The notes beneath the pieces were generated by a model that saw only the letters and a list, made by a program, of their open reading frames with translations, was not told where the DNA came from and did no database searches. 64,000 bases of DNA from Futiania mangrovi (lineage in GTDB: Bacteria > Pseudomonadota > Alphaproteobacteria > Futianiales > Futianiaceae), in assembly GCF_024158125.1 (NCBI RefSeq), contig NZ_JAMZFT010000002.1, positions 1,054,001 to 1,118,000 on the forward strand. Reading direction: 5' to 3'. Numbering within the stretch: position 1 is the first letter of the stretch; every line of letters begins with the position of its first letter. Below, piece by piece: positions 30,209-57,671 of the stretch. Made by a program: the position numbers and the translations under genes.

Positions 30209-30245
30209 CCTGCGCGATGGTCGCAATCACGCATGCCGCTGACGC

Positions 30246-32196: not shown

Positions 32197-32229
32197 GTCG
32201 ACCACTCTCTGCGCCGGATACCTGGCCGA

Positions 32230-33234: not shown

Positions 33235-33286
33235 GACACAAACCCTCCTTGCTCTCGTTGGAGTCCGGTTGGACTGCTTTGCCCCG

Positions 33287-34938: not shown

Positions 34939-34948
34939 CCTCATCCCC

Positions 34949-36558: not shown

Positions 36559-36572
36559 TGACAACGATTTCA
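36559..36572. promoter_or_regulatory. LacI-type operator O2
   Basis: TGACAACGATTTCA repeats O1 with one base change, 49 bp away. The two similar sites suggest cooperative or looped binding by a LacI-family dimer or tetramer. Confidence 0.65.
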
Positions 36573-36786: not shown

Positions 36787-36800
36787 TGAAAACGATTTCT
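36787..36800. promoter_or_regulatory. LacI-type operator O3 over the predicted +1
   Basis: TGAAAACGATTTCT matches the same motif as O1 and O2. It lies 28 bp upstream of the plus-strand ALDH ATG and overlaps the predicted transcription start. Confidence 0.6.
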
Positions 36801-36828: not shown

Positions 36829-38256
36829 ATGCTCGATCTCAATAAGCATTTCATCGATGGTGCGTGGTCATCTTCCAGTGGAGATGTCATCGAGGCCATT
36901 GACCCTTCAACCGAGACCGTCTTCGCCAGGGTGGCTCGGGGCACGGCGAACGATGTCGATCATGCTGTCAATGCGGCAAGGGCCGCGTTCCCCGCATTTG
37001 CCGCGACCCCGGTTGGCGAGCGTATTCGGCTGCTCGAGGCCATTGCCTCCGGACTTGAGGCGCGGCGCACCGAGATTTCCGAGGCCATGTCGGTCGAGAT
37101 GGGCGTGCCTCGAAAGGCTGCCGATGCCGTACATTTTCCGAGTGGACCCGCGCACTTCCGGGAAGCCGCTCGGGTACTCGCGTCCTTTGCCTTCGACGAG
37201 CAACAAGGCTCGACGATGGTGACGCACGAGCCGATCGGTGTTTGCGGCCTCATCACGCCGTGGAACTTTCCGATCAATCAGGTCGCGTGCAAGGTTGCGC
37301 CAGCCCTCGCTGCCGGCTGCACCATGGTCCTCAAACCGAGCGAGATAAGCCCATGGAGTGCCGCGATCATCGCGGAAGTGATCGCGGACGCCGGGGCGCC
37401 TTCTGGTACCTTCAACCTTGTCCAGGGGGACGGCCTGACAACCGGTTCTGCGCTGACCGTCCACCCCTTGGTCGACATGATTTCTTTCACTGGCTCGACA
37501 CGGGCCGGCGTCGAGATTTCGAAGGCCGCGGCCGACACAGTGAAGCGTGTCACGCTGGAGCTCGGTGGCAAGTCGCCCAACATCATTCTGCCGGACGCGG
37601 ATCTCGAGGATGCGGTCAGCAAAGGCGTCGCCCGGTGTTTCAACAACAGCGGCCAATCTTGCATCGCACCGACGCGCATGCTTGTGCCCCGGCCCTTGCT
37701 CGAGAAGGCCGAAGCTATCGCGGCAAGGGTGGCGGGTGAGACCCTCGCAGGTCCCGCGGACAGTCCCGGCAGCGTTATCGGCCCGGTCGCCAATGCAGCG
37801 CAATTCGCGAAGGTGCAGGCTTACATCGAGGCAGGCGTTGCTTCCGGGGCGCGCCTTGTCGCTGGCGGTCCAGGCCGGCCGGACGGGATCGTGCGCGGCT
37901 TCGTGGTGCAGCCAACGGTATTCAGCGATGTCGACCCGTCGATGGCGATCGCGCGAGAGGAAATCTTCGGGCCAGTTCTTTGCCTTATTCCCTACGAGGA
38001 CGAGAACGACGCGGTACGGATCGCCAACGACATCCCGTATGGCCTCGCTGCCTTCGTCCAGGGGCGGGACATGACCGCCGTGCGACGTGTCGCGAGGCAG
38101 ATGAGGGCCGGGATCGTCCAGATGAATTACCCGCCCGTGGATCGAAGCGCCCCTTTCGGGGGCTACAAGCAATCCGGCAACGGGCGCGAATGGGGTGTCC
38201 ACGGGCTTCGCGAGTATCTCGAAGTGAAGGCGATGGTCGGTTTCGGGGAGGCCTGA
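36829..38256 (+). CDS. Aldehyde dehydrogenase family protein (plus-strand operon)
   Basis: A 475-residue aldehyde dehydrogenase. ITPWNFPINQVACKVAPAL, the base Glu in LELGGKSPNIILPDAD and the catalytic Cys in NNSGQSCIAPTRML are intact. It opens an operon with a polyamine-type ABC importer, an M19 protein and a GST, so it probably oxidises an aldehyde made from the imported compound. The Shine-Dalgarno is weak (AAAGG about 15 nt upstream). It is distinct from the ALDH on the other side of the gap (for example GGKSPN versus GGKSAQ), so the pair is not a recent duplication. Confidence 0.94.
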   Translation: MLDLNKHFIDGAWSSSSGDVIEAIDPSTETVFARVARGTANDVDHAVNAARAAFPAFAATPVGERIRLLEAIASGLEARRTEISEAMSVEMGVPRKAADAVHFPSGPAHFREAARVLASFAFDEQQGSTMVTHEPIGVCGLITPWNFPINQVACKVAPALAAGCTMVLKPSEISPWSAAIIAEVIADAGAPSGTFNLVQGDGLTTGSALTVHPLVDMISFTGSTRAGVEISKAAADTVKRVTLELGGKSPNIILPDADLEDAVSKGVARCFNNSGQSCIAPTRMLVPRPLLEKAEAIAARVAGETLAGPADSPGSVIGPVANAAQFAKVQAYIEAGVASGARLVAGGPGRPDGIVRGFVVQPTVFSDVDPSMAIAREEIFGPVLCLIPYEDENDAVRIANDIPYGLAAFVQGRDMTAVRRVARQMRAGIVQMNYPPVDRSAPFGGYKQSGNGREWGVHGLREYLEVKAMVGFGEA

Positions 38257-38313
38257 TCCTGACGGCTCATGGAGCGTTGGAGTAACCAGAACGAACCAAT
38301 GGAGGATTGTCAG

Positions 38314-39366
38314 ATGAATATCACAAGGCGCGGCCTGATCGCCGGTATCGCTGCGGTTCCAGCGGTTGGGTTGGCTGGGCGGCTCGCTGCACAGAACACG
38401 AAGACTATTCGTGTGGCCTCATGGGGCGGCAGCTGGCGCGATTCCTATGTAAAGAACATAGTTCAGCGGATTCCGGACACGTCGATTGGCGTCGAGTTCG
38501 TTCTCGGCAACCCGGACGACAATCTCGCCAAGCAGATTGCTGCCTCCCGGCAGGGTCTGAATGCGTTCGAGGTTATGGAATACACGCCAGCTCAGGCATC
38601 CGTTCTCGACGGTTCCGATATCTTCATGCCGCTGGACTATGACCAGTTGCCCGCTGCGCGGGATTTGCCAGGGTGGGCGCGAACGCCCACCGCGGTCGCT
38701 ACCCAGTTCACTGTCGACGGAATTGTCTACAACAAGGAGAAGTTCGCAGAGTTGGGTATCGAACCGCCTCAGCGCCATGCCGATCTGATCGACGAGCGCC
38801 TCGCGGGACATGTCGCGTTTCCGGACATCGCCAACGGTGCGCACTGGGCCGCCATAGTCGGACTGGCGGGAGGCAACGAGAGCGATCTCTCTCCCGCGCT
38901 CGAACTCGTTAAGAAGATGAACCCCGCCTATTTCTTTTCAGGCTCGACGGACCTCGCTACAAGGTTCGGCTCCGGTGAGATCTGGGCCGCGCCATGGCAA
39001 TCGAGTTGGGCTCTGCGCCTGAGGCGTTCCGGTGCACCCGTCGCGGTTTCCTACCCGAAGATCGGCGAAAAGACCGCGGCGCTGTGGCCGCTGAAGTTTG
39101 CTATTTTGAAGGGCGCATCCTCACCCGAAGCGGCACACGCCTTCATCAACACTGCACTGACAGCGGAGGCGCAGTACGGGCACGGGTCTGTCGTCGGCCA
39201 GGTCCCCGTCAACCCGGAGGCGCGTGCGCGTATGATGAACGAGCCGGAACTGGCGTCCGTCATGCTGCTCAAGCCTGAGCAGATCGAGAATGCCTACCGT
39301 ATCGACTGGACCAAGCTGGATCAGACGGCCTGGCGTGATCGATGGAACCGGCAGATGAGCCGCTAA
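38314..39366 (+). CDS. ABC transporter substrate-binding protein, spermidine/putrescine (PotD) type
   Basis: A 350-residue periplasmic binding protein with a Tat-like signal (MNITRRGLIAGIAAVPAVGL) and the PotD-family core IRVASWGGSWRD, FVLGNPDDNLAKQI and a late SVVGQVPVNPEARARM. GGAGG precedes the ATG at 38314. With the following ATPase and two permeases it forms a polyamine/opine/thiamine-type importer. A stable hairpin follows the stop codon. Confidence 0.9.
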   Translation: MNITRRGLIAGIAAVPAVGLAGRLAAQNTKTIRVASWGGSWRDSYVKNIVQRIPDTSIGVEFVLGNPDDNLAKQIAASRQGLNAFEVMEYTPAQASVLDGSDIFMPLDYDQLPAARDLPGWARTPTAVATQFTVDGIVYNKEKFAELGIEPPQRHADLIDERLAGHVAFPDIANGAHWAAIVGLAGGNESDLSPALELVKKMNPAYFFSGSTDLATRFGSGEIWAAPWQSSWALRLRRSGAPVAVSYPKIGEKTAALWPLKFAILKGASSPEAAHAFINTALTAEAQYGHGSVVGQVPVNPEARARMMNEPELASVMLLKPEQIENAYRIDWTKLDQTAWRDRWNRQMSR

Positions 39367-39445: not shown

Positions 39446-40501
39446 ATGGCTCAGACCCGGGTCAATGGACACTCACGACAGGAAGTCCCCCTCATCATCG
39501 ACGGACTATCCATGCCTACGCCTGAGCGGCGATGGTTCGAGGAATGGCGCGATGGCGGTATCGGTTGCGTGAACACCTGCATTTGCGTCTGGGAAAATGC
39601 GCGCGAGGCGATCACTGTCCTGAGCAGATGGCGTCGGGCTCTCGAGGAAAACAGCGATCTTATTGCGCCTGCGACCTCCGTGGATGAGATTCGCTCCATC
39701 GCTGCGTCTGGGCGCACGGCTGTCGTCTTCAGTTTCCAGAATACCGCGCCGATTGAGCACGACATCGAGCTGTTTACGCACTTCCGGGCGCTCGGCGTGT
39801 GCATCATGCAGCTGACCTACAACCTGCAGAATTATATCGGTTGCGGCTATTGGGAGGCAAAGGATGCGGGGATCTCCTCCCGTTTCGGCGCACTCGCTGT
39901 TCAGGAGATGAACCGCGTCGGGATCATGATCGACCTATCGCATTGTGGTGAGCGAACGACGCTGGATGCGATCGAGATGTCGGAAAAGCCGGTCGCGATC
40001 ACCCATGCGAACCCGCGCGAATTCGTTGGCTCGCCTGTCTATGGGGCGGGCCGACTGAAAACAACGGAGGCGATAAAGGCGCTCAGTGCACGCGGCGGCG
40101 TGATCGGGCTTACGCCGAACCGCAACATGACGCCGGAAGGTGCGGCAACCACGCTCGAGCGCTTTTCCGAGATGGTCGCCTGGACTGTCGACCGCATTGG
40201 CATCGACCACGTCGGCATTGGCCTTGACTACTGTCCCGGTCACCCGAACAGCGTGCGAACGTGGTGGCGCTTTGCCCGCTGGTCGCGGGAGAGTGCTCCG
40301 GCTGAGCAAATGAAGATTGCACCGCACGAGGGGTGGTCCGACTGGATCAGATCACCAGCACAGATAAGCAACATTGCCAAGGGGCTGTCGCAAAGAGGAT
40401 TCTTGCAGGGTGAGATCGACAAGGTCATGGGCGGCAACTGGCTGCGCATCTACGATGTCTGCTTCGCCCCCGCCGCGGCCTACGTGTCGGCCGATTCCTA
40501 A
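39446..40501 (+). CDS. M19 membrane-dipeptidase-like protein lacking the N-terminal metal motif
   Basis: A 351-residue M19-fold protein, paralogous to the one near 28.6 kb: shared blocks are MQLTYNLQNYIGCGYWE, EMNRVGIMIDLSHCGERT, VAITHANPREF and RIGIDHVGIGLDY. The N-terminal HxD zinc motif is absent (IDGLSMPTPERRW), while the two later histidines remain. A binuclear zinc centre would therefore be incomplete, suggesting altered chemistry or a mononuclear enzyme. GAGGA precedes the ATG. It is embedded inside an importer operon, so it probably acts on the imported compound. Confidence 0.85.
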   Translation: MAQTRVNGHSRQEVPLIIDGLSMPTPERRWFEEWRDGGIGCVNTCICVWENAREAITVLSRWRRALEENSDLIAPATSVDEIRSIAASGRTAVVFSFQNTAPIEHDIELFTHFRALGVCIMQLTYNLQNYIGCGYWEAKDAGISSRFGALAVQEMNRVGIMIDLSHCGERTTLDAIEMSEKPVAITHANPREFVGSPVYGAGRLKTTEAIKALSARGGVIGLTPNRNMTPEGAATTLERFSEMVAWTVDRIGIDHVGIGLDYCPGHPNSVRTWWRFARWSRESAPAEQMKIAPHEGWSDWIRSPAQISNIAKGLSQRGFLQGEIDKVMGGNWLRIYDVCFAPAAAYVSADS

Positions 40502-40527: not shown

Positions 40528-41616
40528 ATGTCCAGTGTTTCCCTGAGGGGGGTATCCAAGTCCTATGGCGGCTCCGTCGCCGTAAGGGATGTGAACCTCG
40601 AGATCAGCGAGGGCGAGTTCATAGTCCTCCTGGGCCCTTCTGGATGTGGCAAGACTACGACGCTTCGGATGATCGCGGGGTTCGTAGATCCGACGGCAGG
40701 GCAGATTCTGCTCGGAGGCAAGGACGTAACGCGTCTGCCACCACGCAAGCGTGACATCGGCATGGTCTTTCAGAACTATGCCCTGTTCCCGAACATGAAT
40801 GTCGCCGAGAATATCGCCTTCGGGCTTCGTCGCCGTGGCGCCCCTCGCGAGACGATCAAGGCTCGGGTCGAGGAACTTCTGGACCTGGTGCACCTTTCGT
40901 CTCAGGCGGACTATCACATTGACGAGCTTTCCGGCGGGCAGCAGCAACGCGTTGCCCTGGCCCGGGCGCTTGCCCATACGCCCAGCGTCCTGTTGATGGA
41001 CGAGCCACTCGGCGCTCTTGACCTCAAGCTCCGCGAGCAGCTTCAGGAAGAGATCCTTCGCATCAAGAAGACTTTGGGGATAACGACAATTCTGGTTACG
41101 CACGACCAGCAGGAAGCGATGGCGTTGGCCGATCGTATCGTCCTCATGGACAAGGGGGAGATCCGCCAGGCCGGGACCGCTGACAATCTTTACCGCCGAC
41201 CGGCGAGTCCGTTTGTCGCCGGTTTCATTGGAAAGCGGAATGAGATTCCGGCTGATGTCGCTGGTATGGGCGATCAACTCATTGCCCGTGCATCTGACGG
41301 AACGATTCTTGTGATCGGCCTGCCGGATGACCACCCCTTGGGAGGGAAGGTAACGATCAATCTGCGGCCTGAGCACCTAATCCTGTCGCGTGAGCCGGGG
41401 GAGGCCTGTTCCGACCACACAAGCCTCTCCGCAACTGTTACGGGAAAGCGCTTTCTCGGAAACGTGGTGCACTATGAACTGACCCTGCCATGGGGAGAGG
41501 CCGTGCTTTCGGAGAGCCGCGATGGCGACCACGCTGTAGGGGATAGCGTCTTTGTTTCGTTTGCGCATTCCGACATCGTCATGTTCCCCGAAGATAGCGC
41601 TGGGCGCAGAAAATGA
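40528..41616 (+). CDS. ABC transporter ATP-binding protein, PotA/FbpC type
   Basis: A 362-residue ATPase: Walker A GPSGCGKTT, Q-loop VFQNYALFPNMNV, signature LSGGQQQRVALARAL, Walker B LLMDEPLGALD, switch THDQQEAM, and a C-terminal TOBE-type regulatory domain from about residue 240. It powers the polyamine-type importer of this operon. Its stop overlaps the first permease start by 4 nt (ATGA). Confidence 0.94.
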   Translation: MSSVSLRGVSKSYGGSVAVRDVNLEISEGEFIVLLGPSGCGKTTTLRMIAGFVDPTAGQILLGGKDVTRLPPRKRDIGMVFQNYALFPNMNVAENIAFGLRRRGAPRETIKARVEELLDLVHLSSQADYHIDELSGGQQQRVALARALAHTPSVLLMDEPLGALDLKLREQLQEEILRIKKTLGITTILVTHDQQEAMALADRIVLMDKGEIRQAGTADNLYRRPASPFVAGFIGKRNEIPADVAGMGDQLIARASDGTILVIGLPDDHPLGGKVTINLRPEHLILSREPGEACSDHTSLSATVTGKRFLGNVVHYELTLPWGEAVLSESRDGDHAVGDSVFVSFAHSDIVMFPEDSAGRRK

Positions 41617-42491
41617 GTTCGGCCGCCCTACCGACCCGTAGCCGACATGCGGTGCGCTGGGAGCACTTCCTGTGGGTCCCCGGGCTCGTCAGCCTGATCC
41701 TGCTCGTTGTCCCACAGGCTTCGTTCATCTGGATGAGCCTTCATCGCGACACAGGCTTTGGCTCGGTCGGTGACGAACTAACCTTCGCGAACTATGCGAC
41801 CATCCTCACCGATCCGTTCTATCTGGGCTCCATCTGGCTGACGTTGCGTCTTTCGGCTATCGCCACCATCGCGGTGCTGATCGTTGCGATGCCGACGGCG
41901 TACTCATTTGCCCGGCTTGGCGGATTGACGGCATCCGTGCTTCTCGGCCTCGTGTTGACAACATCGCTGGTCACCATCGTCATCAAGATCCTCGGACTCA
42001 ACATCATCCTGGGCTCGACGGGGATCATCAACGAGGCGCTTGCCGGGCTTGGCGTCACCGACAGGCCCATCGCGATGATCAACAATGAAATCGGTGTGCT
42101 GATTGGCCTGATGCACTACACATTGCCGATCGCAATCCTGATGCTGTTCGCTGTGTGCCAAACCATTCCGTTGTGGCTTGAAGAGGCGGCGGCAATCCAT
42201 GGGGCGACGCGCGGGGCAATCTTCCTTCGCGTGATCCTTCCGATCATGCGGCCCGGGCTCATCGCGACGGCTCTCATCGCGTTCAACATGAATGTCGGCG
42301 CATTCACGTCAGCGCTGCTGCTGGGAGGCGGGCGGGTGCGTACGATGCCGGTTCTGATCCAGCAAGAAATAATCCAGGGGAATCGATATGCGATGGGGGC
42401 GGCACTCGCGACCACAATGCTTGTGATCGTGTTTGTCCTCAACGTGGCGGTCGCTCTCTCGATGACCTCCCGTAGAAGGAAGGCGAGATGA
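41613..42491 (+). CDS. ABC transporter permease, PotB type
   Basis: A 292-residue inner-membrane permease with six helices and the EAA loop EEAAAIHGATRGAIFLRVILP. It overlaps its neighbours on both sides by 4 nt and pairs with the next permease in a heterodimeric importer. Confidence 0.93.
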   Translation: MSSAALPTRSRHAVRWEHFLWVPGLVSLILLVVPQASFIWMSLHRDTGFGSVGDELTFANYATILTDPFYLGSIWLTLRLSAIATIAVLIVAMPTAYSFARLGGLTASVLLGLVLTTSLVTIVIKILGLNIILGSTGIINEALAGLGVTDRPIAMINNEIGVLIGLMHYTLPIAILMLFAVCQTIPLWLEEAAAIHGATRGAIFLRVILPIMRPGLIATALIAFNMNVGAFTSALLLGGGRVRTMPVLIQQEIIQGNRYAMGAALATTMLVIVFVLNVAVALSMTSRRRKAR

Positions 42492-43312
42492 TGGGACACG
42501 TCCGCATCCCGCGCCTTTCCCACTTTGTTGCCTTTTTCTCAATGGCATTTCTGCTGGCGCCGTTCGTTATCGTCGTCGGGGCGTCCTTTGATACGGCTGA
42601 GGGCTTCGCGATCCGCTTTCCGCCTCGCGAACTAACGCTGGAGTGGTACCTCTCGCTTCCACAGAAGTACATGGACGGATTTGTGGTGAGTCTGCTGGTC
42701 GCGATATTGGTGGCAGTATGCTCTGCCGTTCTCGGTCTCATGATCGCGCTCGCTTTGGTGCGTGGACGGATCATTGGTCGTGCATTTCTGGAGTCTTTCT
42801 TCCGCATTCCGGTGCAGATCCCCCTCGTCGTCACAGGCGCGGTAATGATGAACTTTGCCTACCAGGTCATCGCGATTACGGGCTTCAACCCGTTGACCAA
42901 CCTGACGGCCCTTGTGGTTGGTCACAGCTTTGTGGCCATCCCCTATTGCGTAGGCGCCATCGGCTCGGTACTGGCCCGCCTCGACGAGGGACTGGAAGAG
43001 GCGGCAGCGAGCCTCGGTGCAACGCAGTGGGAAACGTTTTGGCATGTGACGCTGCCGGCGTTGCGGCCCGGCCTGTTGGCAGGGATGTTCTACGCTTTCA
43101 TCTTCTCGTTCGGGGATGTGCCGGTTTCGCTCTTTCTCGTTGGCCCATCCACGACGACGCTGCCCATCCAGATTTTTCAGGACATGCAGTTCGATTTCCA
43201 GCCCGGGATGTTGGCGATTTCCGCAATAATCGTCGTCTTTTCCTTTCTTGCGATCCTGACGGTTCAGCGGGTCGTCGGGCTCGACCTCGTCTTGCCGTCC
43301 CGCCGCAAATGA
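42488..43312 (+). CDS. ABC transporter permease, PotC type
   Basis: A 274-residue permease with six helices and the EAA loop EEAAASLGATQWETFWHVTLP. Second permease of the polyamine-type importer. The stop overlaps an in-frame upstream ATG of the GST gene (ATGA), indicating one polycistron. Confidence 0.93.
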   Translation: MMGHVRIPRLSHFVAFFSMAFLLAPFVIVVGASFDTAEGFAIRFPPRELTLEWYLSLPQKYMDGFVVSLLVAILVAVCSAVLGLMIALALVRGRIIGRAFLESFFRIPVQIPLVVTGAVMMNFAYQVIAITGFNPLTNLTALVVGHSFVAIPYCVGAIGSVLARLDEGLEEAAASLGATQWETFWHVTLPALRPGLLAGMFYAFIFSFGDVPVSLFLVGPSTTTLPIQIFQDMQFDFQPGMLAISAIIVVFSFLAILTVQRVVGLDLVLPSRRK

Positions 43313-43329
43313 TCCTGGAGCCGCTGCAA

Positions 43330-43935
43330 ATGATGACTCTCTTCTGGTCCGCAACTTCCCCCTTCGCGCGCAAGGTGATGATCACCGCACATGAGTTGGG
43401 GATCGCCGATCGAATAACCTTGCAACCGACCGTTACCGCCGACGAACCGGAAGAACTTCTGGCTGTCAGCCCAGCTGGCAAGCTGCCAGTTCTGCTGACA
43501 GAGGACGGAACGGCAATTGCCGATTCCCGGGTGATCTGCGCGTATCTCGACGCCGAGTTCGGCCAGAATCGGCTGCTTCCAGCCGGTAGTACGGACAGGT
43601 GGAAGGCGTTGACTGATGCGGCGCGGGCGGATGCCGCTACCGAGGCCGGCATCCTGGTTCGGTTGGAGAGGATGCGGCCAGAGCCCTTGCGCTCAGCGCA
43701 GGTTGAGGCAAAGCAACTTCGGAAGGTGATGCGCAGTCTTGATGCGTTCGACGCTGCCCATCTCCGGTCAGAACCCTTCGATGTTGCGGGGATAGCGCTC
43801 GGTGCTGCCCTGGGCTGGTTGTTGCTACGGCTTCCCGACGACCGCCTTCTCAACGATCGGCCGCGTCTTGCTGACTGGTTCGCGGCGATAAGCAGCCGTC
43901 CTTCGATGCAGGCTACTCTCCCCCCGGTGGGATAG
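43330..43935 (+). CDS. Glutathione S-transferase family protein
   Basis: A 201-residue GST. The N-terminal thioredoxin fold is MMTLFWSATSPFARKVMITAHE, with the Ser/Thr-Ser-Pro-Phe-Arg-Lys segment of beta/zeta-like classes, and DSRVICAYLDAEFG binds the gamma-glutamyl part. It is followed by a helical C-domain. I chose the ATG at 43330 (GGAG 9 nt upstream) because the fold starts there; an ATG at 43309 overlapping the permease stop is the alternative. It may remove a reactive aldehyde or electrophile formed in the pathway (inference). Confidence 0.88.
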   Translation: MMTLFWSATSPFARKVMITAHELGIADRITLQPTVTADEPEELLAVSPAGKLPVLLTEDGTAIADSRVICAYLDAEFGQNRLLPAGSTDRWKALTDAARADAATEAGILVRLERMRPEPLRSAQVEAKQLRKVMRSLDAFDAAHLRSEPFDVAGIALGAALGWLLLRLPDDRLLNDRPRLADWFAAISSRPSMQATLPPVG

Positions 43936-43939
43936 CGTT

Positions 43940-44977
43940 TCAGGATGACTGGCGTTGGACCAGGCCGCGTTCGATCATCACAAGCTCCTGCGGTGCCTGC
44001 CCTTGCCATTGGCTGTCTAGCGCCTGGTGAATACAGCGGGCCATCTCCTCGGCATGCGAGGAAAGTGTCGTTAGTGCCGGACGCAGGTGGGCGCTCATCT
44101 CGACATTTCCGAAGCCGACCAACCGCACATCCCGCGGTACTCTGAGGCCGTGATCGGTGAGGGCCGCCAGCGCTCCCATGGCGAGTTCGTCGCTTCCTGC
44201 CTGAATGGAGCGAAAGGCAATCCCTTCCCTGAGAGCACGGTTTACCGCGTCACGGCCTGCGGAGTACCGATAAGCAACATCCCATGTTAGCGCCGCGTCA
44301 CGCGGGGCCCCTGCAGCCTCGTGCGCATCGCAGTATCCACGATGCCGCTCGGTGCCGACGGCGGAGCCCTGAACGCGGCCAACATAGGCGCAGGGCGCGC
44401 CGCCGAGAGCCAAGAGCTGCCCGACCGAATGACGGGCTGCTGCCCGTTCATTGTAGGTTACTGATGGCACCCCGGCCCACGTGAGGTCTTGCCCCGCTGC
44501 CACAATCGGGATCCCGGCGTTGCGCGCCGCTGCAATTTCGGTCGCTGCTGCCGAGGAGATCGTGTCAGACGATGCGAGAACGATGCCGTTCAGTTGAAGC
44601 GCTGGTGCCTGCCGAAGGATATGCATCAGCCGGTCCTCGCGGTGCTCTAGATCATGCAGCAGCAGGTCGGTCCCAACTGCGGACAGTTCCTTCTGCACGT
44701 GCTTGGTCAACGAGGAAAAGTGGCTCTGCTCGATGTCACCGACCAAGAGGGCGACGATCCTTGAGCGTCCCTCCCGCAAGCCACGGGCGAAGGCGTTCGG
44801 GCGATAGCCGAGCGCATTCGCCGCATCCTGAACACGCTGGCGCAGCTCCGGCGAGACAACAGCCTTATCTCCCAGAGCGCGCGAGACAGTCGCGGGAGAA
44901 ACGCCTGCCCTTTTTGCAACGTCCCGTACGGTCGGGACGAGCCGGCTGAGCTTCTTTCTTTTGCTTTGGTCGGACAT
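43940..44977 (-). CDS. LacI-family transcriptional regulator (second of two)
   Basis: A 345-residue LacI/GalR regulator: helix-turn-helix PTVRDVAKRAGVSPATVSRAL, hinge NAFARGLREGRSRIVALL, and a ligand domain sharing VGDIEQ, VGFGNVEMSAHLRPALTTL and AGSDELAMGALAA with the LacI protein near 29 kb. It diverges from the 868-aa gene and has a perfect operator just upstream of its own start, so it is probably autoregulated. Confidence 0.93.
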   Translation of the reverse strand: MSDQSKRKKLSRLVPTVRDVAKRAGVSPATVSRALGDKAVVSPELRQRVQDAANALGYRPNAFARGLREGRSRIVALLVGDIEQSHFSSLTKHVQKELSAVGTDLLLHDLEHREDRLMHILRQAPALQLNGIVLASSDTISSAAATEIAAARNAGIPIVAAGQDLTWAGVPSVTYNERAAARHSVGQLLALGGAPCAYVGRVQGSAVGTERHRGYCDAHEAAGAPRDAALTWDVAYRYSAGRDAVNRALREGIAFRSIQAGSDELAMGALAALTDHGLRVPRDVRLVGFGNVEMSAHLRPALTTLSSHAEEMARCIHQALDSQWQGQAPQELVMIERGLVQRQSS

Positions 44978-44991
44978 TTCACCCGTCGCTT

Positions 44992-45005
44992 TGAAATCGA
45001 TTTCA
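44992..45005. promoter_or_regulatory. Perfect LacI-type operator between the LacI gene and the 868-aa gene
   Basis: TGAAATCGATTTCA is a perfect 14-bp palindrome centred on CG. It lies 15 bp upstream of the LacI-family ATG and 44 bp upstream of the divergent 868-aa gene, so one site could control both. It shares its outer bases and centre with the three sites near 36.5 kb. Confidence 0.75.
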
Positions 45006-45048
45006 GTGAGTGATATAGGTTTCCGTCAGGTTATGGGAGGCCCGTGCC

Positions 45049-47655
45049 GTGACACCCCTTAAGCACCTCACTCCTACCATTGGAGGACGCGGCGCGCCGC
45101 TCAGTGAATCTGACGCGGCAACGGCTGTCTCGACCCGACTTGGTTTTGCGCGAGCTGGAATTGAAGCGCTCCTGAAGAGGCGATGGCGGTTGCAGAAAGT
45201 AGACCTGCAGCTTGATGCCAACGGTTGTGGCGAAGCGTTATACCGCCTCTCCTGCGACGGTAAAGACTTTCATTACTTTGTCATTTCGCAAGATTTGCCA
45301 GAAAGCCAGAAGCTGGATCGCAATTTCGCTGCGAGCTGGGATATCATGGCGGTGCTCTGCGAGGGCTCGTGGACACCCGACCGCGAGGAGTATCTCCGGC
45401 GTCAGGTTCCACTCCAGCGCGCCGGGCGGGGCGACATAGACACGCTCATCTACGCGCGGGGTAACCGCAGCGGCCGGCTCTTCAACGCCGTGGTTGATGC
45501 GCTCGCCGCCGGGCGGCAACCGGACTTGAGGGAACTTGCCAGGGTCGGCTACATCGTTCGGACCACCGCGTTTATTGGCAATGGTCAGCTGGGGACGCGT
45601 CCTTTCTCGGGCTACGGGGCAGACCATCCATTCGGGGCGCCCTATCATGCACAGATTATGGCGGGCTTCCTGCTGCGGGAATTCTCGTTCGACCTCGTGA
45701 ACGAGATGGCTGCGGCTCGATCGGCGGGCGCTGTGCAGCTTGCACCTGAGATCTGCCGCTTTCTGGGGCTCGGTAACGCCGCTGCCACAGGATTAGTGCC
45801 TTTTCTCGTCAATCATCCGCGGCTCGTGGGAGAGTGGGTAGCCAGTGACCGGGCCGCTCTCGCCGATATCTGCGCACAGCCTGTAACGCCAGCGATTGTG
45901 GAGCGAACGCGGGCTCTCGTCGGAAAGGCGGCGGCCTTCCTCGCCGAGACGGACAGGCCGGACGATGGTGTATTCGCGACGGATGCCACGCTTGCTGCCG
46001 GACTTGGCGTTGCCCGTAGCAGACTAGACGAAGGAGGGGACAGGACGCTGACGCTGGGCGAGCTTCGTGAGCGCATGGCGGACGGCCTCCATCCGGGTGT
46101 TCGCGCACTACTGGATTCGATCTTTCTCGACGTACTGCCCGGCGTCGCGGATCGCCACGCGCGTATTCGCTCCATTGACGAGCGACTTGCCCCCGATTGG
46201 CGAGGCACCACGGGGTCTCTTCTGTCCGTCGTGCGAGACCGGTATGGATGGGCACTTGCGGCCGCCGATCGGGAGGGGAGTGGTGCAGCCTTCTGGTACC
46301 GTGCGTCGGGAGCGCCGCGCGACCTGCGGCGGGGCCTGATCGGGCGGCGGCCCGAGGCGGAGTTTGAGACTGCCATGGACGTCGTGCCGCGTATCCAGGC
46401 GCTCCACGCAGCTCTTGAAAAGGCGCAGGACAAGCCGTTGGCGGACTTCCTGGCCGATCACCCGGAACTTCGGCACATCGCTGCCCGGGTTCATGGGCTC
46501 GCCGACTTGCCCTTCGCGGAACTAGAGGTTGACCTGACCGCGATGGCGCTCTCACCCTTTCCGCCCGTGCGCCTCGTGCTCGCCCTGTTTGGCCTTGACC
46601 AGTTTGAGGCGGCACACCCGAAATCCGTACGAGGTACATTTCTCCAGGGTGCCCCGATTGAACTCGATCTTCGCCAACGGGTGGCCGATGAGGATGACCA
46701 GGGTCATCGCTGGCCGTTTCCGTTAATGCCCCAAAAACTGAGTGCTGGCGCCCGACCTGTGATCGCCCGGGATGCAATACGTTTCGATGCCGAAGGCAAG
46801 TGGAGATGTCCTTACGGAGAAGACGCGGAAGGGAGAGAAACGCTGATTATTACCCCCATCGAGCTCGAGCGGGGCTTCCTGGGGCTCATGCAGTCGGGTG
46901 GGCTCGACCTGGGCGTAGCGGAAGAAGCCGCCGTGCTCGCAACGGAAGCAGTGATCTGGCAGCCGAGGTTGGCGGGCGTGCTAGTGGACGAACTGTCGGC
47001 GGCAGATGCGAACCTCGGAGAACCGCTGCGTCTGGTCCAGAGTGAACCTAACAGGCCGGCGCTGCTCTCTGGAGGCTGTGCAGCACTTGCTGCTGCCCCA
47101 GCGGTTCTCGATCTCGCCTGTGCAAGGGCGATCACGGGGGCAGGGTCCGGGCTGGCAATTGCACATGTTGGCGTCGCCGGCCTCGCAGCCGGTCCCGCCC
47201 TTGCCGCGGCAGCGGCGCGCCGGGGTTTCATTGCTCTCGTGGCCACGTGCGACGGAAGTACTTGCTCTCTGACGCTCGCGGAAGATCGAGGCACATCGGT
47301 GGCGTTGACAGAGCCGACACCAATCTCCGGACCCGATGCGGCCTTGCTGTTCAACGGCCGCTTCGACCTTGAAACGATCAAGGGCGCTTTGAGAAACCAG
47401 GGGCGCGCTAGGGTACCTGCGGGCCTCTTCCTCGCCTGCGTGACATCGGGTGAAATCGCTGACGCTTTGCGTGACGCTATGCCTCACGAGCCCGCTGACG
47501 CTGATGTTTTGCTCATGTCTGCGAACCGGGACGGGGTAGCTATCTCCCGCGACGTCTTCCTCGCGCTGGAGCGACTTTCCGCGCGACTCTACGTTTCGCC
47601 GGATGTTGAAGTCGACCTGCGAGACGAGATCATCGATCCACTGAAGATGTTCTGA
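45049..47655 (+). CDS. Large cytoplasmic hypothetical protein, 868 aa
   Basis: I cannot identify this protein. It begins with GTG preceded by GGGAGG at 8 nt. No signal peptide or membrane helix is visible. Residues about 20-230 are mixed with conserved-looking GKDFHYFVISQDLPESQKLDRNF (in pieces) and GTRPFSGYGADHPFGAPYHAQIM blocks rich in aromatic and charged residues. The last 270 residues carry a helical, Ala-rich region (GLDLGVAEEAAVLATEAV, GVAGLAAGPALAAAAARRG) faintly like DUF3726 or malate/lactate-dehydrogenase-type proteins, a weak resemblance. It is under a LacI-type operator, so it is probably an inducible enzyme of the adjacent pathway. Confidence 0.8.
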   Translation: MTPLKHLTPTIGGRGAPLSESDAATAVSTRLGFARAGIEALLKRRWRLQKVDLQLDANGCGEALYRLSCDGKDFHYFVISQDLPESQKLDRNFAASWDIMAVLCEGSWTPDREEYLRRQVPLQRAGRGDIDTLIYARGNRSGRLFNAVVDALAAGRQPDLRELARVGYIVRTTAFIGNGQLGTRPFSGYGADHPFGAPYHAQIMAGFLLREFSFDLVNEMAAARSAGAVQLAPEICRFLGLGNAAATGLVPFLVNHPRLVGEWVASDRAALADICAQPVTPAIVERTRALVGKAAAFLAETDRPDDGVFATDATLAAGLGVARSRLDEGGDRTLTLGELRERMADGLHPGVRALLDSIFLDVLPGVADRHARIRSIDERLAPDWRGTTGSLLSVVRDRYGWALAAADREGSGAAFWYRASGAPRDLRRGLIGRRPEAEFETAMDVVPRIQALHAALEKAQDKPLADFLADHPELRHIAARVHGLADLPFAELEVDLTAMALSPFPPVRLVLALFGLDQFEAAHPKSVRGTFLQGAPIELDLRQRVADEDDQGHRWPFPLMPQKLSAGARPVIARDAIRFDAEGKWRCPYGEDAEGRETLIITPIELERGFLGLMQSGGLDLGVAEEAAVLATEAVIWQPRLAGVLVDELSAADANLGEPLRLVQSEPNRPALLSGGCAALAAAPAVLDLACARAITGAGSGLAIAHVGVAGLAAGPALAAAAARRGFIALVATCDGSTCSLTLAEDRGTSVALTEPTPISGPDAALLFNGRFDLETIKGALRNQGRARVPAGLFLACVTSGEIADALRDAMPHEPADADVLLMSANRDGVAISRDVFLALERLSARLYVSPDVEVDLRDEIIDPLKMF

Positions 47656-47847: not shown

Positions 47848-48330
47848 TCAAACGAGGTTCAGACCACCCGTAGCACCCAGTTCGCGAAACGCCGCGCCAT
47901 AGGATCTGAGCCTGTCCGTAACTATCTTCTCTGGCTGGCCGAACCGCTTCATGGCTTTCCGCAGCAACCTCAAAGCTGCCTTGCGATCCCGGGTTTTCGT
48001 GACATAGGCCTCGAGAACTTCACCCTCGTGATCGACGGCGCGCCAGAGGGAATGCATCTCGCCGCCGATCTTCACGTAGACCTCGTCCAGGTGCCATCGC
48101 CACTGGCGAAACCCTTGCAGGAACTGGGGCCGCTTCCTGCGGATCTGCCCAGCGAACATCGACCCGAACCGGTTCCACCAGAACCGCACCGCTTCGTGGC
48201 TGATGTCGATTTCTCGCTCATGGAGCAGGTCCTCGACGTTCCGGAGCGACAGGGGAAACCGGACGTACATCATGACCGCGAGGCGGATGACCTCGGGGGA
48301 CGTCTTGAAACGGCGGAGGGGGCTGGGCAT
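47848..48330 (-). pseudogene. IS6-family transposase, 3'-truncated (copy C)
   Basis: The 160-residue frame begins MPSPLRRFKTSPEVIRLAVM and keeps two catalytic Asp (WHLDEVY and IVTDRLRSYG), but homology stops after GAAFRELGA and the Glu-bearing AENSHLPFRRRE segment is missing; the last residues are foreign. Not functional. Confidence 0.85.
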
Positions 48331-49236: not shown

Positions 49237-50166
49237 TTATCCCTTTGGTGAAAAGGGATGGGTCTCCATCCAATGGCGCGCGATATCGATGCGGCGGCAA
49301 ACCCAGGCGTCCGGATGCTCTAGTGCATAATCCAAAAAGCGTGCTAGCCCGGCCAATCTCCCGGGGCGGCCGATCAGGCGTGGGTGCAAGCCGATAGACA
49401 TCATCCGTGGCGTCCTTCGACTTTCTTCCATCAGGACGTCGAAGGCATCCTTCAGGTAATCGAAGAATTCGCGCCCGGTCACAAAGCCATTCATATTCGA
49501 GAAACGCATGTCATTGTTGTCGAGGCTATAGGGTACGATGAGCAATGGCTTGCCCTGCTCGACGATCCAGTACGGTACGTCGTCGGCGTAGCTGTCGGAG
49601 TCGTACAGGAAGCCGCCTTCTTCCATCATCAGGCGTCTCGAGTGGTCGCTCATCCTGCCGGCGAACCAGCCCAAAGGGCGTTCTCCCGTGGTATCCTTGA
49701 TGGCCTTCACGGCACGGCGGATGTGATCGCGCTCTGTCGCTTCGTCCACCTGGGAATAATCGATCCAGCGGTAGCCATGGCAAGCGACCTCGTGTCCGGC
49801 TTCAGCCAGGGCGCGGCCTGCTTCAGGATAGCGCTCCAAAGCCATTCCCACGGCGAAGGCTGTAAACGGCGCGCCGCGCGAGCCGAAAAGCTCAAGTAGC
49901 CGCCACAGGCCGACCCGGCTTCCGTACTCGTAGATGGACTCCACCATGAGATTGCGGCGGCCCTCCCACGCACCGAGAGAGGGGTGGCCGGGCATGTCGG
50001 TCAGGATGCCCTCGGATGCCGCATCCCCGTGGAGTATGCAGTTCTCTCCACCCTCCTCGTAATTCACGACGAACTGTACTGCCAGTCGGGCTCCTCCGGG
50101 CCACTCCGTTTCCGGAGGAGTGGCTCCATAGCCGACCAGGTCGCGCGGATATTTCGAAGGGGGCAT
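49237..50166 (-). CDS. Polysaccharide deacetylase family protein, PuuE-type
   Basis: A 309-residue NodB-fold protein of the PuuE (cofactor-independent allantoinase) subgroup: FVVNYEEGGENCILHGDAASE, GFLYDSDSYADDVPYW and a late SIGLHPRLIGRPGR. Members hydrolyse cyclic amides, N-formyl or N-carbamoyl groups. The ATG at 50166 is 3 nt after the amidase stop. The context (amidase, alpha/beta hydrolase, TRAP importer) suggests degradation of a small amide or ureide; no other purine genes are present. Confidence 0.86.
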   Translation of the reverse strand: MPPSKYPRDLVGYGATPPETEWPGGARLAVQFVVNYEEGGENCILHGDAASEGILTDMPGHPSLGAWEGRRNLMVESIYEYGSRVGLWRLLELFGSRGAPFTAFAVGMALERYPEAGRALAEAGHEVACHGYRWIDYSQVDEATERDHIRRAVKAIKDTTGERPLGWFAGRMSDHSRRLMMEEGGFLYDSDSYADDVPYWIVEQGKPLLIVPYSLDNNDMRFSNMNGFVTGREFFDYLKDAFDVLMEESRRTPRMMSIGLHPRLIGRPGRLAGLARFLDYALEHPDAWVCRRIDIARHWMETHPFSPKG

Positions 50167-50168
50167 GA

Positions 50169-51659
50169 TCAGCTCCGTTGTTCCGACTCCAGGATCTTTT
50201 TGACGGGTGGCGGCAGAGCACTTGAGAACTCCATGACGCCCTCGATGGAAGCTGCTGCTGCAACGACCTCCAGGTCTGCCAGGTGACGGCCCACGATCTG
50301 CAGGCCCACAGGCAGCCCCTCCGGGGTGCAGCCAATCGGGACCGTTGCCGCCGGCTGGCCGGTCATGTTGAAAGGAAAGGTCATGCCGGTCCACTTTATC
50401 GGGGGCACCGGGACGCCGTTGATTTCCTCAGGTCCACGAATGCCGAGACCGAAGGCGGGAACCAATGACGTTGGCGTCACCAGGAGGTCGAAGCGGCGCA
50501 TGAAGCGCCACATGCAATTCGCGATCTCCTTGCGGGCACGCACTGCGTCGGTCAGATCTTCCGCCGTCCAGTCGCGCTCCAGAAAGGCGACCAGATGCGG
50601 GGACATTTCGTCACGATGTTCGGCGCAGACCCTTCTGAAACCGCGCAGATCCGTATCAAGTGCGACCAGTCCCCAAAAGGCGTTCTGCATGTCGCGAAAA
50701 CCTGGTGAGGCTTCCTCGACATGGCAGCCTAGTCTGTCTGCCAGTTGCGCTACTGCTGAGCGGAAGAGCCGCCGCACGTCGTCATCAACGGGCAGGAAGC
50801 CCCAATTCTCTGAATAGGCGATCTTCTTGCCGGCCAGGGTTCGCGTTCGTGCTGCGTCTTGCCAATTCAGTCCTTCGTCGGGGATCGAATGACGATCGCG
50901 GTCGTCCGGTCCGGCCATGACCGACAGCATCAATGCCCCGTCAGCGACGCTTCGCGTAATGGGGCCGATGTGCTCGATCGTCTCCCAGCTGGAAATTCCG
51001 GGAAAGCGTTCGTCCCGGCAGCCTGGGTACAGAGGGACCCGGCCAAAGGACGGCTTCATTCCAAAGAGGCCGCAAAGGGCTGCCGGAATCCGTATGGACC
51101 CACCGCCGTCGCTGCCGACCGCGAGAGGTACCATGCCTGCTGCCACTGCCGCGGCCGAACCGGCGCTCGATCCGCCGGAGGTTCTGTCGAGATTCCAAGG
51201 ATTGCGGGTGGTTGGGAAGACCGGATTGTGCCCCACTCCGGCGTATGCCAGTTCGGGTACATTCGTCTTGCCGACAATGATCGCTCCGGCAGCGCGCAGC
51301 CGCTCGACAACGATGTCATCCTCTTCCGGAACGAAATCCCTGTAGATCGGGGAGCCTTGTACGGCAGGCAGCCCGCGCACCATTACCGTGTCCTTTACGG
51401 CAACCGGCACGCCCGCCAGAGGTCCAAGCAACTCGCCTCGGCGCCTGCGGACGGATAGCGCTTCCGCTGCGGCATATGCTCCCTCGGTATCGACCACACA
51501 GAAGGCGGCAATGTGGGGGTCGAGTGAACTGATGCGTCGGCGTACCTCCGAGATCACTTCGATCGGGTTCAGGCTTCCCTCCCGAACGCCGCGCGCGATC
51601 TCGATGGCCCCCTTGTCGAGCGCGCCGGGTACGGATGAATCGTTGAACCGATTGGGCAT
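50169..51659 (-). CDS. Amidase signature family enzyme
   Basis: A 496-residue amidase. The Ser-cisSer-Lys triad is visible: Lys89 in VAVKDTV, the cis-Ser in GGSSAGSAAA (around residue 164) and the nucleophile Ser188 in GSDGGGSIRIPA. It hydrolyses a carboxamide to acid and ammonia in the cytoplasm. It is 7 nt after the TRAP large-permease gene and 3 nt before the deacetylase gene, so all belong to one operon. Confidence 0.94.
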   Translation of the reverse strand: MPNRFNDSSVPGALDKGAIEIARGVREGSLNPIEVISEVRRRISSLDPHIAAFCVVDTEGAYAAAEALSVRRRRGELLGPLAGVPVAVKDTVMVRGLPAVQGSPIYRDFVPEEDDIVVERLRAAGAIIVGKTNVPELAYAGVGHNPVFPTTRNPWNLDRTSGGSSAGSAAAVAAGMVPLAVGSDGGGSIRIPAALCGLFGMKPSFGRVPLYPGCRDERFPGISSWETIEHIGPITRSVADGALMLSVMAGPDDRDRHSIPDEGLNWQDAARTRTLAGKKIAYSENWGFLPVDDDVRRLFRSAVAQLADRLGCHVEEASPGFRDMQNAFWGLVALDTDLRGFRRVCAEHRDEMSPHLVAFLERDWTAEDLTDAVRARKEIANCMWRFMRRFDLLVTPTSLVPAFGLGIRGPEEINGVPVPPIKWTGMTFPFNMTGQPAATVPIGCTPEGLPVGLQIVGRHLADLEVVAAAASIEGVMEFSSALPPPVKKILESEQRS

Positions 51660-54603: not shown

Positions 54604-54998
54604 TTTAAGTAAGGTCCCCGTGTATTTAGACCGGTGCCATTATATTTGTGGAATTGTGCTTTTTAATTCCGGCAATCTCGATCTGTGGTTGATTGGGAAA
54701 CGCGATTTCTTGATGTCGGGCATTGGCGTTGCACTCTGAGTGGTGCGCTAAGCGCCACCAGATCGGCGGTGGAATCGCTTCGCCTCACCTCTTCCCACCT
54801 CAAAATTTGTGCGAACATCTTAGTGCGTTTCCGCCTTGCGGTGTCAAATGGAATCTTCAGCACAACGTTATGTGATCAATTGCTGTGCATAAAAGCTGAA
54901 TTATTAGGCGTAAAAATTCATCCGAGACTTGAAAGATCCACAGGATCAATAAGAGGAATCATCCGTACAAATAAGGTCTTGTTTCAGGGATCCGACTT
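54604..54998. other. Non-coding AT-richer region between the TRAP operon and IS copy D
   Basis: Apart from the promoter near 54640 I see no gene-like frame. A GAAACGCGATTTC sequence near 54698 loosely resembles the LacI-type operators but has an extra central base. The right part runs into the truncated end of an IS6-family copy. Confidence 0.5.
54639..54671 (-). promoter_or_regulatory. Candidate promoter and operator of the TRAP/amidase operon
   Basis: On the minus strand a perfect TATAAT lies 36-41 bp upstream of the DctP ATG. The -35 region is poor (ATTAAA), but it overlaps an inverted repeat GGAATT-N9-AATTCC, suggesting an activator or repressor site. Confidence 0.4.
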
Positions 54999-55701
54999 GG
55001 GGGGCCGCGCCGAGCTGACGCCACGCGTTGAGGGCGGCGGTTCGGCTCTCCTTGAAATTTTGTCTCTGGTTGAGGTGGCGCTCCAGGTTGAAGTGGTTGT
55101 GGACCGAGGAGTGGATGGCGACGAATTTTTGCAGGCTTCGCATCCGGCGAAATCGCTGCATCGCCCGCTCTCGTCGCCGGAACGGCAGGTGTGAGTTTTC
55201 GGCCCGGTCGTTGAGCCACCGGCCCGTTTCCTGGCGGCCTTGTGCACCGAGGTCCTTTAGCGCTGCGCCATAGGATCTGAGCCTGTCCGTGACGATCGCG
55301 TCGGGCCTTCCGAACCGCTTCATCGCCTTGCGCAGCAACCTGAGAGCAGCCTTGCGATCCCGGGTCTTCGTGACATAGGCCTCGAGCACCTCGCCCTCGT
55401 GATCGACGGCGCGCCAAAGGTAGTGCATCTCCCCGCCGATCTTCACGTACACCTCGTCCAGGTGCCATCGCCACTGGCGAAACCCGCGGAGGAACTGGGC
55501 CCGCTTTCTGCGGATTTCGCCGGCGAACATCGGCCCGAACCGGTTCCACCAGAACCGCACCGTTTCGTGGCTGACGTCGATCCCTCGCTCATGCAGCAGG
55601 TCCTCGACATTCCGGAGCGACAGCGGGAACCGGACGTACATCATCACCGCGAGGCGGATCACCTCGGGCGAGGTCTTGAAGTAGCGAAAGGGGCTGGGCA
55701 T
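54946..55701 (-). CDS. IS6-family transposase with 18-residue non-native C-terminus
   Basis: A 251-residue transposase. The start MPSPFRYFKTSPEVIRLAVM is shared by most copies in this window. DDE residues are Asp82 (HLDEVYVK), Asp139 (IVTDRLRSYG) and Glu168 (RAENSHLPFRRRERAM). The native protein should end NAWRQLGAA at residue 233; here the frame runs on for 18 residues into flanking DNA because the element's end is missing. This is the only copy in the window with an uninterrupted catalytic domain and C-terminus, so it could still act in trans. Confidence 0.85.
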   Translation of the reverse strand: MPSPFRYFKTSPEVIRLAVMMYVRFPLSLRNVEDLLHERGIDVSHETVRFWWNRFGPMFAGEIRRKRAQFLRGFRQWRWHLDEVYVKIGGEMHYLWRAVDHEGEVLEAYVTKTRDRKAALRLLRKAMKRFGRPDAIVTDRLRSYGAALKDLGAQGRQETGRWLNDRAENSHLPFRRRERAMQRFRRMRSLQKFVAIHSSVHNHFNLERHLNQRQNFKESRTAALNAWRQLGAAPQVGSLKQDLICTDDSSY

Positions 55702-55758
55702 CCGGGGAGGCCAGAGATGCCGCCCGGCGGGCTCAACGGATTTTCCTCTGACAAGCCC
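55003..55758 (-). mobile_element. IS6-family element, copy D (left end lost)
   Basis: The right terminal sequence (inverted GGGCTTGTCAGAGGAAAATC) is intact, and the transposase frame is complete through its DDE motif, but the left 50 or so bases that contain the stop codon and the left terminal repeat in the 63-kb copy are replaced by unrelated DNA. The element should be immobile unless complemented. It abuts the stop codon of the TAXI-type permease gene by 12 bp. Confidence 0.85.
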
Positions 55759-55769
55759 CTGCAAAGGCA

Positions 55770-57671
55770 TTACCTTGCCCGCACCGCATCTCCCTTCTTC
55801 AACTGGCCGGCGCCCAGCCAGGTGAAGGTAGCGAGGCAGACGACCAGCAGTGGATATTCCAGCGGAATGCTCTCCACCTGCCTCAGTGTTAGATAGGCAA
55901 AAGCCGAGATCGCTGCGACTGCGGCGATAAGACGTTCGGTGCTGCTCAGTCGGCGCAGCGCATGCCCGTAAATCGCTGCGGAAAGTGCGATCAGCGCGAT
56001 GGGCATGGTGACGAGTGCCCCAAGCGCCCAATCCCAGGACACGACCTCAAGCCGCAGGACGGGGTTGAACACCATGAAGAAAGGAATGATGAAGCCCGAC
56101 AGCGCCAATTTGAACCCCTTCGCTGCGCTCAGCATGTAGCGGCCACCCGACAGCGCCGTAGCGGCCAGCGTGCCGAGTGCGACGGGCGGGGTCACGGCGG
56201 ACATGATCGCGAAGTAGAAGGCGAAGAAGTGCGCCGAGATCGGCGACAGACCCATCTTGACGAGCGTCGGGGCCGCCGTGATCGCGACCAGGCTGTAGGC
56301 CGCTGCCGGCGGCACACCGCAGCCGAGGATAATCGACACGACCATGGTAATCAGCAGTGCAATTATCAGGTTGCCACCGCTAAAGGTCTCCACGAGGCCG
56401 GCGATCTTCGATCCCAGGCCGGTGGAGATCAGCGTCTGGGCGATTAGCCCGACGACGGCCAGGGACACGGCGATTTTCGAGCCGACAACCGCGCCGCGCG
56501 CCAGGCAGCGCAGCGTCTCGGCAAGGGAGGGCCGGTCCCTGCGCATCTGGCCGATCGCCAGTGCGGTCACGATGGCCCAGAACGCGGCGACGTCGGGCGA
56601 ATAGCGCATCAGCAGCAGCGTAATGATCACGCCGAGCGGCAGGACGAATGCCGGGCTGCGGTTGAGGATCAGCCGGTAGTCCGGCTTCTCGGTGGGCGCA
56701 AAGATTCCTTCCTGAACGGATGCGAAGTGCACCGAGACCAGCACGCCGAGGTAGAAGAGCAGAGCCGGCAGGATACCGAGCAGCATCACGTCGACGTAAG
56801 GTACGCCTATGAAGAAGGCCATGAGGAAGGCGGCCGCGCCCATGACCGGCGGCATGAGCTGGCCGCCGGTCGAGGCGGTCGCCTCGATGGCGCCGGCAAG
56901 CTCGGGCGAATAGCCGGACCGCTTCATGTAGGGGATGGTGAAGGCGCCCGTCACCGCGACGTTCGCGACCGATGCACCCGTGATCATGCCCACGAGCGAA
57001 CTCGAGACCACCGCGGTCTGTGCAGGTCCGCTGCGCACCCGCCGGCCGACGATTTTGCCCACCTCGCTCAGGAAGTCGTCGATGCCAAGAACGGCGAACA
57101 GCGCGCCAAACACGACGAAGAGAAAGATCTGGTTGGCGGAGATCGACAGGAAGGTCCCGTAGATGCCCGTGAGGCCGACCGAGAGATAGGAGATGACGTA
57201 GCCGAATGAGAACTCGCGGTGGTAGAGCGGCCCGGGCAGAAGGTGACCCAGAAAGAAGTACAGGATGAAAACGCCGGCAACGATCGGAAGGATCAGCCCC
57301 CAGCTTCGCCGCGTCGCCTCGATCACTGCCACCATCAGGATGACGCCGGCGGCCATGTCGACCGGTTCAGGAAAGCCGAGGACCATGTTGAGATGATCGA
57401 TGTTCATCGCGACATAGGTTGCTGCACCGAGACCTGCCGCTGCGATCGTCGTCTGCACAATCCGTGCAATCGTCCCGCTGGCGCCGAAACCCGAGACGAG
57501 CACGATGAAAATCGCGAATGCCAGATGCACGCTCTGGTGGACGAAGGTCGTCACGAAGAAGCCCTGGCTGACAACCATATGGTAAGCCACCATGCCGCAA
57601 CCGGCGGCGACCGTGAGTAGGTCGGCGATACGGCGCGTATGTGTCTGGGTGGCGGGCGGCACCGAATCCAT
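55770..57671 (-). CDS. TRAP transporter permease, fused 4TM/12TM type (TAXI system)
   Basis: A 633-residue permease in which the small and large TRAP subunits are fused, with about 17-18 helices: MKRSGYSPELAGAIEATAST, GGQLMPPVMGAAAFLMA and CGVPPAAAYSLVAITAAPTL are family blocks. The start at 57671 has GGAG upstream on the minus strand. It works with the TAXI binding protein encoded immediately upstream. It is a separate system from the DctPQM importer 2 kb away. Confidence 0.93.
   Translation of the reverse strand: MDSVPPATQTHTRRIADLLTVAAGCGMVAYHMVVSQGFFVTTFVHQSVHLAFAIFIVLVSGFGASGTIARIVQTTIAAAGLGAATYVAMNIDHLNMVLGFPEPVDMAAGVILMVAVIEATRRSWGLILPIVAGVFILYFFLGHLLPGPLYHREFSFGYVISYLSVGLTGIYGTFLSISANQIFLFVVFGALFAVLGIDDFLSEVGKIVGRRVRSGPAQTAVVSSSLVGMITGASVANVAVTGAFTIPYMKRSGYSPELAGAIEATASTGGQLMPPVMGAAAFLMAFFIGVPYVDVMLLGILPALLFYLGVLVSVHFASVQEGIFAPTEKPDYRLILNRSPAFVLPLGVIITLLLMRYSPDVAAFWAIVTALAIGQMRRDRPSLAETLRCLARGAVVGSKIAVSLAVVGLIAQTLISTGLGSKIAGLVETFSGGNLIIALLITMVVSIILGCGVPPAAAYSLVAITAAPTLVKMGLSPISAHFFAFYFAIMSAVTPPVALGTLAATALSGGRYMLSAAKGFKLALSGFIIPFFMVFNPVLRLEVVSWDWALGALVTMPIALIALSAAIYGHALRRLSSTERLIAAVAAISAFAYLTLRQVESIPLEYPLLVVCLATFTWLGAGQLKKGDAVRAR

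Follow-up and report, generated by a model that had tools for sequence, protein, structure and literature searches.

What kind of protein is encoded by the long reading frame that lies opposite a LacI-family gene in the 64,000-nt stretch of DNA analyzed here (the window), and what might it do there? An earlier note, made from the letters alone, had described an inducible gene of 868 codons under a perfect operator, with no recognized domain, and had proposed a novel enzyme because of its position between an importer operon and an amide-hydrolase operon. The reading frame was borne out at exactly the coordinates given, and its start, ribosome-binding site and operator were confirmed:

45049 to 47655, + strand: fusion gene, an 868-aa open reading frame with a GTG start and no internal stop
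45035 to 45040, + strand: ribosome-binding site GGGAGG, 8 nt ahead of the GTG (read directly)
44992 to 45005: LacI-type operator TGAAATCGATTTCA, a perfect 14-bp palindrome between the fusion gene and the divergent LacI-family gene
43940 to 44977, - strand: LacI-family regulator gene, divergent from the fusion gene

Inducibility is suggested by the LacI-family gene and the operator. The absence of a recognized domain was also correct for searches made with the single sequence: Pfam (maximum E of 1), NCBIfam (maximum E of 0.1) and phmmer against the PDB (maximum E of 1) gave nothing significant, and no curated family matched the 868-aa protein. Comparison with more distant relatives divided the protein into three segments:

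45049 to 46764, + strand: part A region, residues 1-572, of the DUF3726-partner family, which elsewhere stands alone at about 570 aa
46765 to 46836, + strand: linker, residues about 573-596 (roughly 30), missing from the relatives
46837 to 47655, + strand: part B, residues about 597-868, assigned by profile and model to the DUF3726 type and the Ldh_2 fold, without the SHG and GTNP motifs

The relatives of part A are stand-alone proteins of about 560-600 aa that align with window residues from about 20 to 587 only, and elsewhere a separate gene for a DUF3726-type (part B) protein of about 220-250 aa comes after the part A gene. An in-frame ATGA overlap was present in 30 of the 68 called A/B pairs. 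Read-through of the part A frame into part B was found at none of 137 other part A loci (some of these are one place fetched twice), and the long protein of locus L015 owes its length to an insertion within part A, not to fusion. The GC3 value was 0.668 in each half of the gene, compared with 0.455 around the linker. The window protein is very probably a natural fusion of an operon-linked protein pair, which the earlier note had overlooked, and belongs to that type of operon. The fusion is known from one assembly, and its genus has no second genome for comparison.

The part A family is large and unnamed and has no curated model, and the window protein is not an orphan. Whole-genome searches placed the family in 52 of 385 genomes of the class and in 20 of 142 relatives, with the own genome counted in both; the matches in the class genomes ranged from E 2e-70 to 1e-21 over alignments of about 540 residues. 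Relatives with about 26-41% identity were found by tblastn in 168 plasmid records. A profile scan of a genome-contig collection gave at least 566 related stretches, and the best 80 of these came from Vibrio, Halomonas, Marinobacter, Psychrobacter, Pseudomonas, SAR11-type Alphaproteobacteria and Brevibacillus. A pattern scan of the same collection with the window protein returned no relatives because the pattern method reaches close relatives only. Window part A carries the conserved blocks SRxNxSxR, GRQPD, GNGxxG, GxGN, WY-S and xGAP and is thus a member of the family. On a plasmid of the haloarchaeon Natrinema versiforme (L190, 8088-13282), part A is accompanied by a 317-aa neighbor in the part B position, an aldehyde dehydrogenase, a BCCT transporter and a dihydrodipicolinate-synthase-family gene; the presence of part A there likely reflects transfer between domains. 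In S. meliloti ABS7 pSymB (L028), at about 11440, the unannotated part A match is partial, falling into two pieces, because the frame stops early, possibly through a strain-specific frameshift.

The structures of part A and part B were modeled apart. The part A model was confident (pLDDT 84.5, pTM 0.88). Foldseek with the whole long part A model gave 0 matches in the PDB at E<=0.001, the best VIA alignment of the whole model reached Z 5.3 over 114 residues, and the structural neighbors were weak and unrelated; for so long a model, searched in one piece, this is no proof of a new fold. The part A profile gave only helical chance matches against the PDB. Conserved residues in part A include R127, N139, R143, R171, N243, W416, Y417 and R427, and the alignment holds no conserved cysteines or metal-ligand clusters.

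In the part A tree, the window sequence groups with L025, L027, L028, L029, L031, L032 and L011 on a long branch (1.4), within a subgroup of 11 sequences (support 1.0) in which three places are counted twice. Most of this subgroup (group II) has GNGxFGTRxF-like and GVGNGSALGL motifs, whereas the main group has GNGKFGIAD and GIGNxTGLGM. Frequent in operons of the subgroup are a regulator, of the IclR or another family, and an ABC importer of the polyamine type; SMb20383 of S. meliloti may belong to the group-II locus. Window part A retains 60 of 86 near-invariant positions, and its subgroup mates retain 57-64 of 88-90. Because of the long branch, the divergent subgroup and the different conserved motifs, the function of the window protein need not match that of the family, and its substrate may differ.

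Stand-alone part B proteins match DUF3726 (PF12525), a family for which our literature search found no papers. Neither the full window protein nor window part B alone produced a hit to this family at the Pfam gathering score of 22.1 bits. Nevertheless, window part B aligned with the profile of the stand-alone part B proteins by hhalign at E=2.8e-7 over 227 columns and is, to judge from this comparison of sequences, a remote homolog of the DUF3726-type proteins. The best PDB matches of the stand-alone part B profile were nearly all Ldh_2 enzymes, although individually weak, and the profile matched the Ldh_2 enzymes of the same operons (PF02615) at E=2.3e-6. The AlphaFold2 model of window part B (pLDDT 73.9, pTM 0.75) settles the fold, since the 27 PDB chains that it matched at E<=0.001 were all Ldh_2 proteins, with Z values of 13.9-18.7. 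The highest values were those of YiaK (18.7) and delta1-piperideine-2-carboxylate reductase (16.0), followed further down by a drop to Z 4.

The catalytic motifs of that family are missing from part B. SHG was found in none of 25 part B sequences, the window included, compared with 11 of 13 operon Ldh_2 enzymes; for GTNP, the counts were 0 of 25 and 13 of 13. A working dehydrogenase was rejected as the role of part B because both motifs are missing, and part B would no longer be a dehydrogenase of the usual kind. The SRxGAG tail, near-universal at the C-terminus of stand-alone part B proteins, is lost in the window protein, which ends in YVSPDVEVDLRDEIIDPLKMF. The proposal of a novel enzyme is upheld for the N-terminal two thirds, which belong to a large family without curated model, solved relative or PDB fold match, but not for the C-terminal third, which has a known fold without its catalytic motifs.

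Around the relatives, the gene order is LysR, RidA (at times), aldehyde dehydrogenase, M19 hydrolase, BCCT or ABC importer, part A, part B and, at times, an Ldh reductase. Among 87 part A loci, a count that takes in the window and plasmid loci, the neighbors were M19 (80), part B (69), aldehyde dehydrogenase (65), LysR (44), a BCCT betaine-type transporter (42) and RidA (35). On annotated plasmids, part A is followed by a gene called "hypothetical" or DUF3726, with an M19 "membrane dipeptidase" before or after, and some part A loci also have a full Ldh_2 oxidoreductase. In Ruegeria TM1040 and Phaeobacter, the order LysR-ALDH-M19-BCCT-A-DUF3726-Ldh adjoins sarcosine-oxidase-family genes. The nearest PDB entry to the Ruegeria operon Ldh is delta1-piperideine-2-carboxylate reductase (184 bits; next 136), and the Ruegeria operon ALDH scored best with 2,5-dioxovalerate dehydrogenase, under the cut-off. 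In the host genome itself, at about 162,400-169,700 of G000:C4 (L162), an M19 gene (71% to operon M19s) and a DpkA-like Ldh_2 gene (62%) adjoin sarcosine-oxidase-family genes; this is a main-group locus without the A/B pair.

In the window, genes of the same kinds lie to the left of the fusion gene, and two further operator sites accompany them:

36559 to 36572: operator 2 (2 mismatches), between the divergent aldehyde dehydrogenase genes
36787 to 36800: operator 3 (2 mismatches), ahead of the rightward aldehyde dehydrogenase operon
34949 to 36412, - strand: second aldehyde dehydrogenase, divergent from the first, with operators common to both
36829 to 38256, + strand: aldehyde dehydrogenase that opens the importer operon
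38269 to 39366, + strand: extracellular solute-binding protein (SBP_bac_8)
39449 to 40501, + strand: M19 amidohydrolase-type "dipeptidase" (M19a)
40528 to 41616, + strand: ABC importer ATPase (PotA/PhnT2 type)
41613 to 42491, + strand: ABC importer permease 1 (PotB type)
42488 to 43312, + strand: ABC importer permease 2
43309 to 43935, + strand: glutathione S-transferase-like protein, end of the importer operon
28105 to 29163, - strand: second M19 hydrolase (M19b)

Three operator sites with at most 2 mismatches occur in the window compared with 0.07 expected, and these three are among the five found in the whole 3.39-Mb genome. Because the operators are shared, the fusion gene has its likely regulator in common with the kinds of genes found around part A in other genomes. 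M19a shares 65% identity with the M19 of a Variovorax A/B operon, compared with about 43% with other operon M19s, and M19b shares 61% with the M19 of L129, a subgroup locus where this gene adjoins part A and part B. The window regulon contains no BCCT, RidA or Ldh gene, and its importer is of the ABC type. Homologs of M19a (68-70%) also occur in a module that combines an importer of the NMT1 type with an FAD oxidoreductase, and the window carries such a module too. This second catabolic module (28105-36412, - strand) comprises an aldehyde dehydrogenase, an NMT1-type ABC importer, a CrtO-like FAD oxidoreductase, a muconolactone-isomerase-like protein, a second LacI gene and the second M19 gene; similar sets are present in L183 and L184.

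As to the position between two operons, the link to the ABC importer was supported by the common operators and the conserved gene neighbors, but the link to the amidase operon found no such support: an IS240-type transposase copy (47848-48330, - strand) intervenes, and no operator was found in the amidase/allantoinase block. That copy and a second one (54946-56031, - strand) flank the hydrolase/allantoinase/amidase/TRAP block; they are 86% identical over 300 nt and in direct orientation, with the left copy truncated, and the block may form a mobile unit of its own, distinct from the fusion gene. At 49237-51659 (- strand), it contains a PuuE-type allantoinase (above the NCBIfam cut-off), then an amidase for which no NCBIfam equivalog scored above the cut-off, then a TRAP transporter. 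These genes possibly form a hydantoin- or ureide-type pathway.

The reading that we favor, and consider somewhat likelier than all others together, is that the fusion gene encodes the single-chain form of a conserved two-protein catabolic enzyme whose pathway also involves the products of the M19, aldehyde dehydrogenase and importer genes. Part A (about residues 1-565) would most likely be the catalytic unit, and part B (about residues 597-868), as a member of the Ldh_2 fold that is not a dehydrogenase, most likely a subunit that has a structural role or presents the substrate; the two would bind each other. The pair would act with the M19 amidohydrolase, a semialdehyde dehydrogenase and the importer, joined in most relatives by RidA or a DpkA-like imine reductase. 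The LacI protein probably represses the fusion gene and the aldehyde dehydrogenase, importer and M19 genes as long as neither the substrate nor a metabolite is present.

RidA hydrolyzes enamines and imines, and by established chemistry the enzyme set of these operons fits conversion of a 2-carboxylated six-membered N-heterocycle to a glutamate-type (or methylated glutamate-type) product. A classical oxygenase is not a constant member of the part A operons, and the step that activates the ring would therefore naturally fall to the A-B enzyme as candidate. An imported N-heterocyclic carboxylate or betaine is most likely opened or dearomatized in the pathway. A substrate that is N-heterocyclic or betaine-like is a serious possibility, which we rate a little short of even, and the exact A-B reaction can be named with low confidence only. 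For the main, BCCT-linked group, homarine (N-methylpicolinate) would be the leading candidate; the homarine genes carry the names homABCDER. The subgroup of the window protein has no BCCT and Ldh genes in its regulon and may use another heterocycle. A bolder version, which we regard as doubtful, is that part A, a catalyst of new fold, needs no oxygen for its attack on N-methylated or N-heterocyclic aromatic carboxylates and has a dehydrogenase-derived pseudoenzyme as obligate partner, and that the window protein is a fused member with a changed substrate.

The alternative that survives best, although it is unlikely, is that A and B together form an oxidoreductase in which the Ldh_2-fold part B has a novel mode of nucleotide or substrate binding, part A supplies the rest of the active site and a pyridinium ring is reduced. 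Part B and the DpkA-like reductase of the same operons are related, and reduction of a 2-carboxylated ring would suit the pathway; however, none of the 25 part B proteins has SHG or GTNP, and stand-alone part B genes often adjoin a full Ldh_2 gene that is capable of reductions. Slightly less probable still is a pair that is no enzyme at all but regulates, or serves as a scaffold for, either the M19 hydrolase or the aldehyde dehydrogenase. This would agree with the lack of a recognizable catalytic motif in either half, with a part A free of conserved cysteines and metal-ligand clusters, and with M19 as the most constant neighbor (80 of 87 loci), but the glycine-rich loops of part A hold numerous polar and charged residues that are invariant, a pattern more typical of an active site than of a scaffold. 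A decaying or misassembled fusion without function, which the long branch, the low-GC3 linker, the lost SRxGAG tail and the single genome might suggest, is very improbable given 868 stop-free codons, a perfect operator and ribosome-binding site, equal GC3 in the two halves, 60 of 86 near-invariant residues retained in part A and a part B that still models as a complete Ldh_2-type fold.

The fusion provides "Rosetta stone" evidence for joint action, as a single enzyme, of the unnamed protein of about 570 aa and its DUF3726 partner. The A/B pair occurs in SAR11, which is abundant in the ocean, and in Vibrio, Halomonas, Roseobacter, rhizobia and a haloarchaeon, and its reaction therefore bears on the consumption of dissolved organic nitrogen. 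A confidently modeled family without a PDB match, together with a motif-less partner derived from Ldh_2, is a good target for structure determination, and the single-chain version is simpler to express and test than two subunits.

Three known systems can be compared with the window protein. A conserved bacterial homarine pathway in which N-methylglutamate dehydrogenase takes part was described by Ferrer-Gonzalez et al. 2026 (Nat Microbiol 11:1531, as cited in PMC13390433) and is probably the closest system in print. As far as that citation describes the pathway, the main-group betaine transporter, sarcosine-oxidase/Mgd-type genes, imine-2-carboxylate-type reductase and C5-semialdehyde-type dehydrogenase fit homarine catabolism, and the gene match of the part A operons to it is a lead; the window protein, in contrast, lies in a divergent subgroup, perhaps with another substrate, and its regulon lacks BCCT. 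The operons of Ruegeria TM1040, Phaeobacter, Vibrio, Halomonas and SAR11 include members or remote members of both window halves and have M19, aldehyde dehydrogenase and importer genes in common with the window. The window differs from them in its one fused chain, in LacI for LysR and an ABC importer for BCCT, in a regulon without RidA or Ldh, in an identity of about 30% and in its group-II motifs. Finally, the Ldh_2 family (YiaK, type-2 malate/lactate dehydrogenase, sulfolactate dehydrogenase and delta1-piperideine-2-carboxylate reductase) shares the fold of part B, but part B does without the catalytic SHG and GTNP motifs and is instead fused to, or partnered with, part A.
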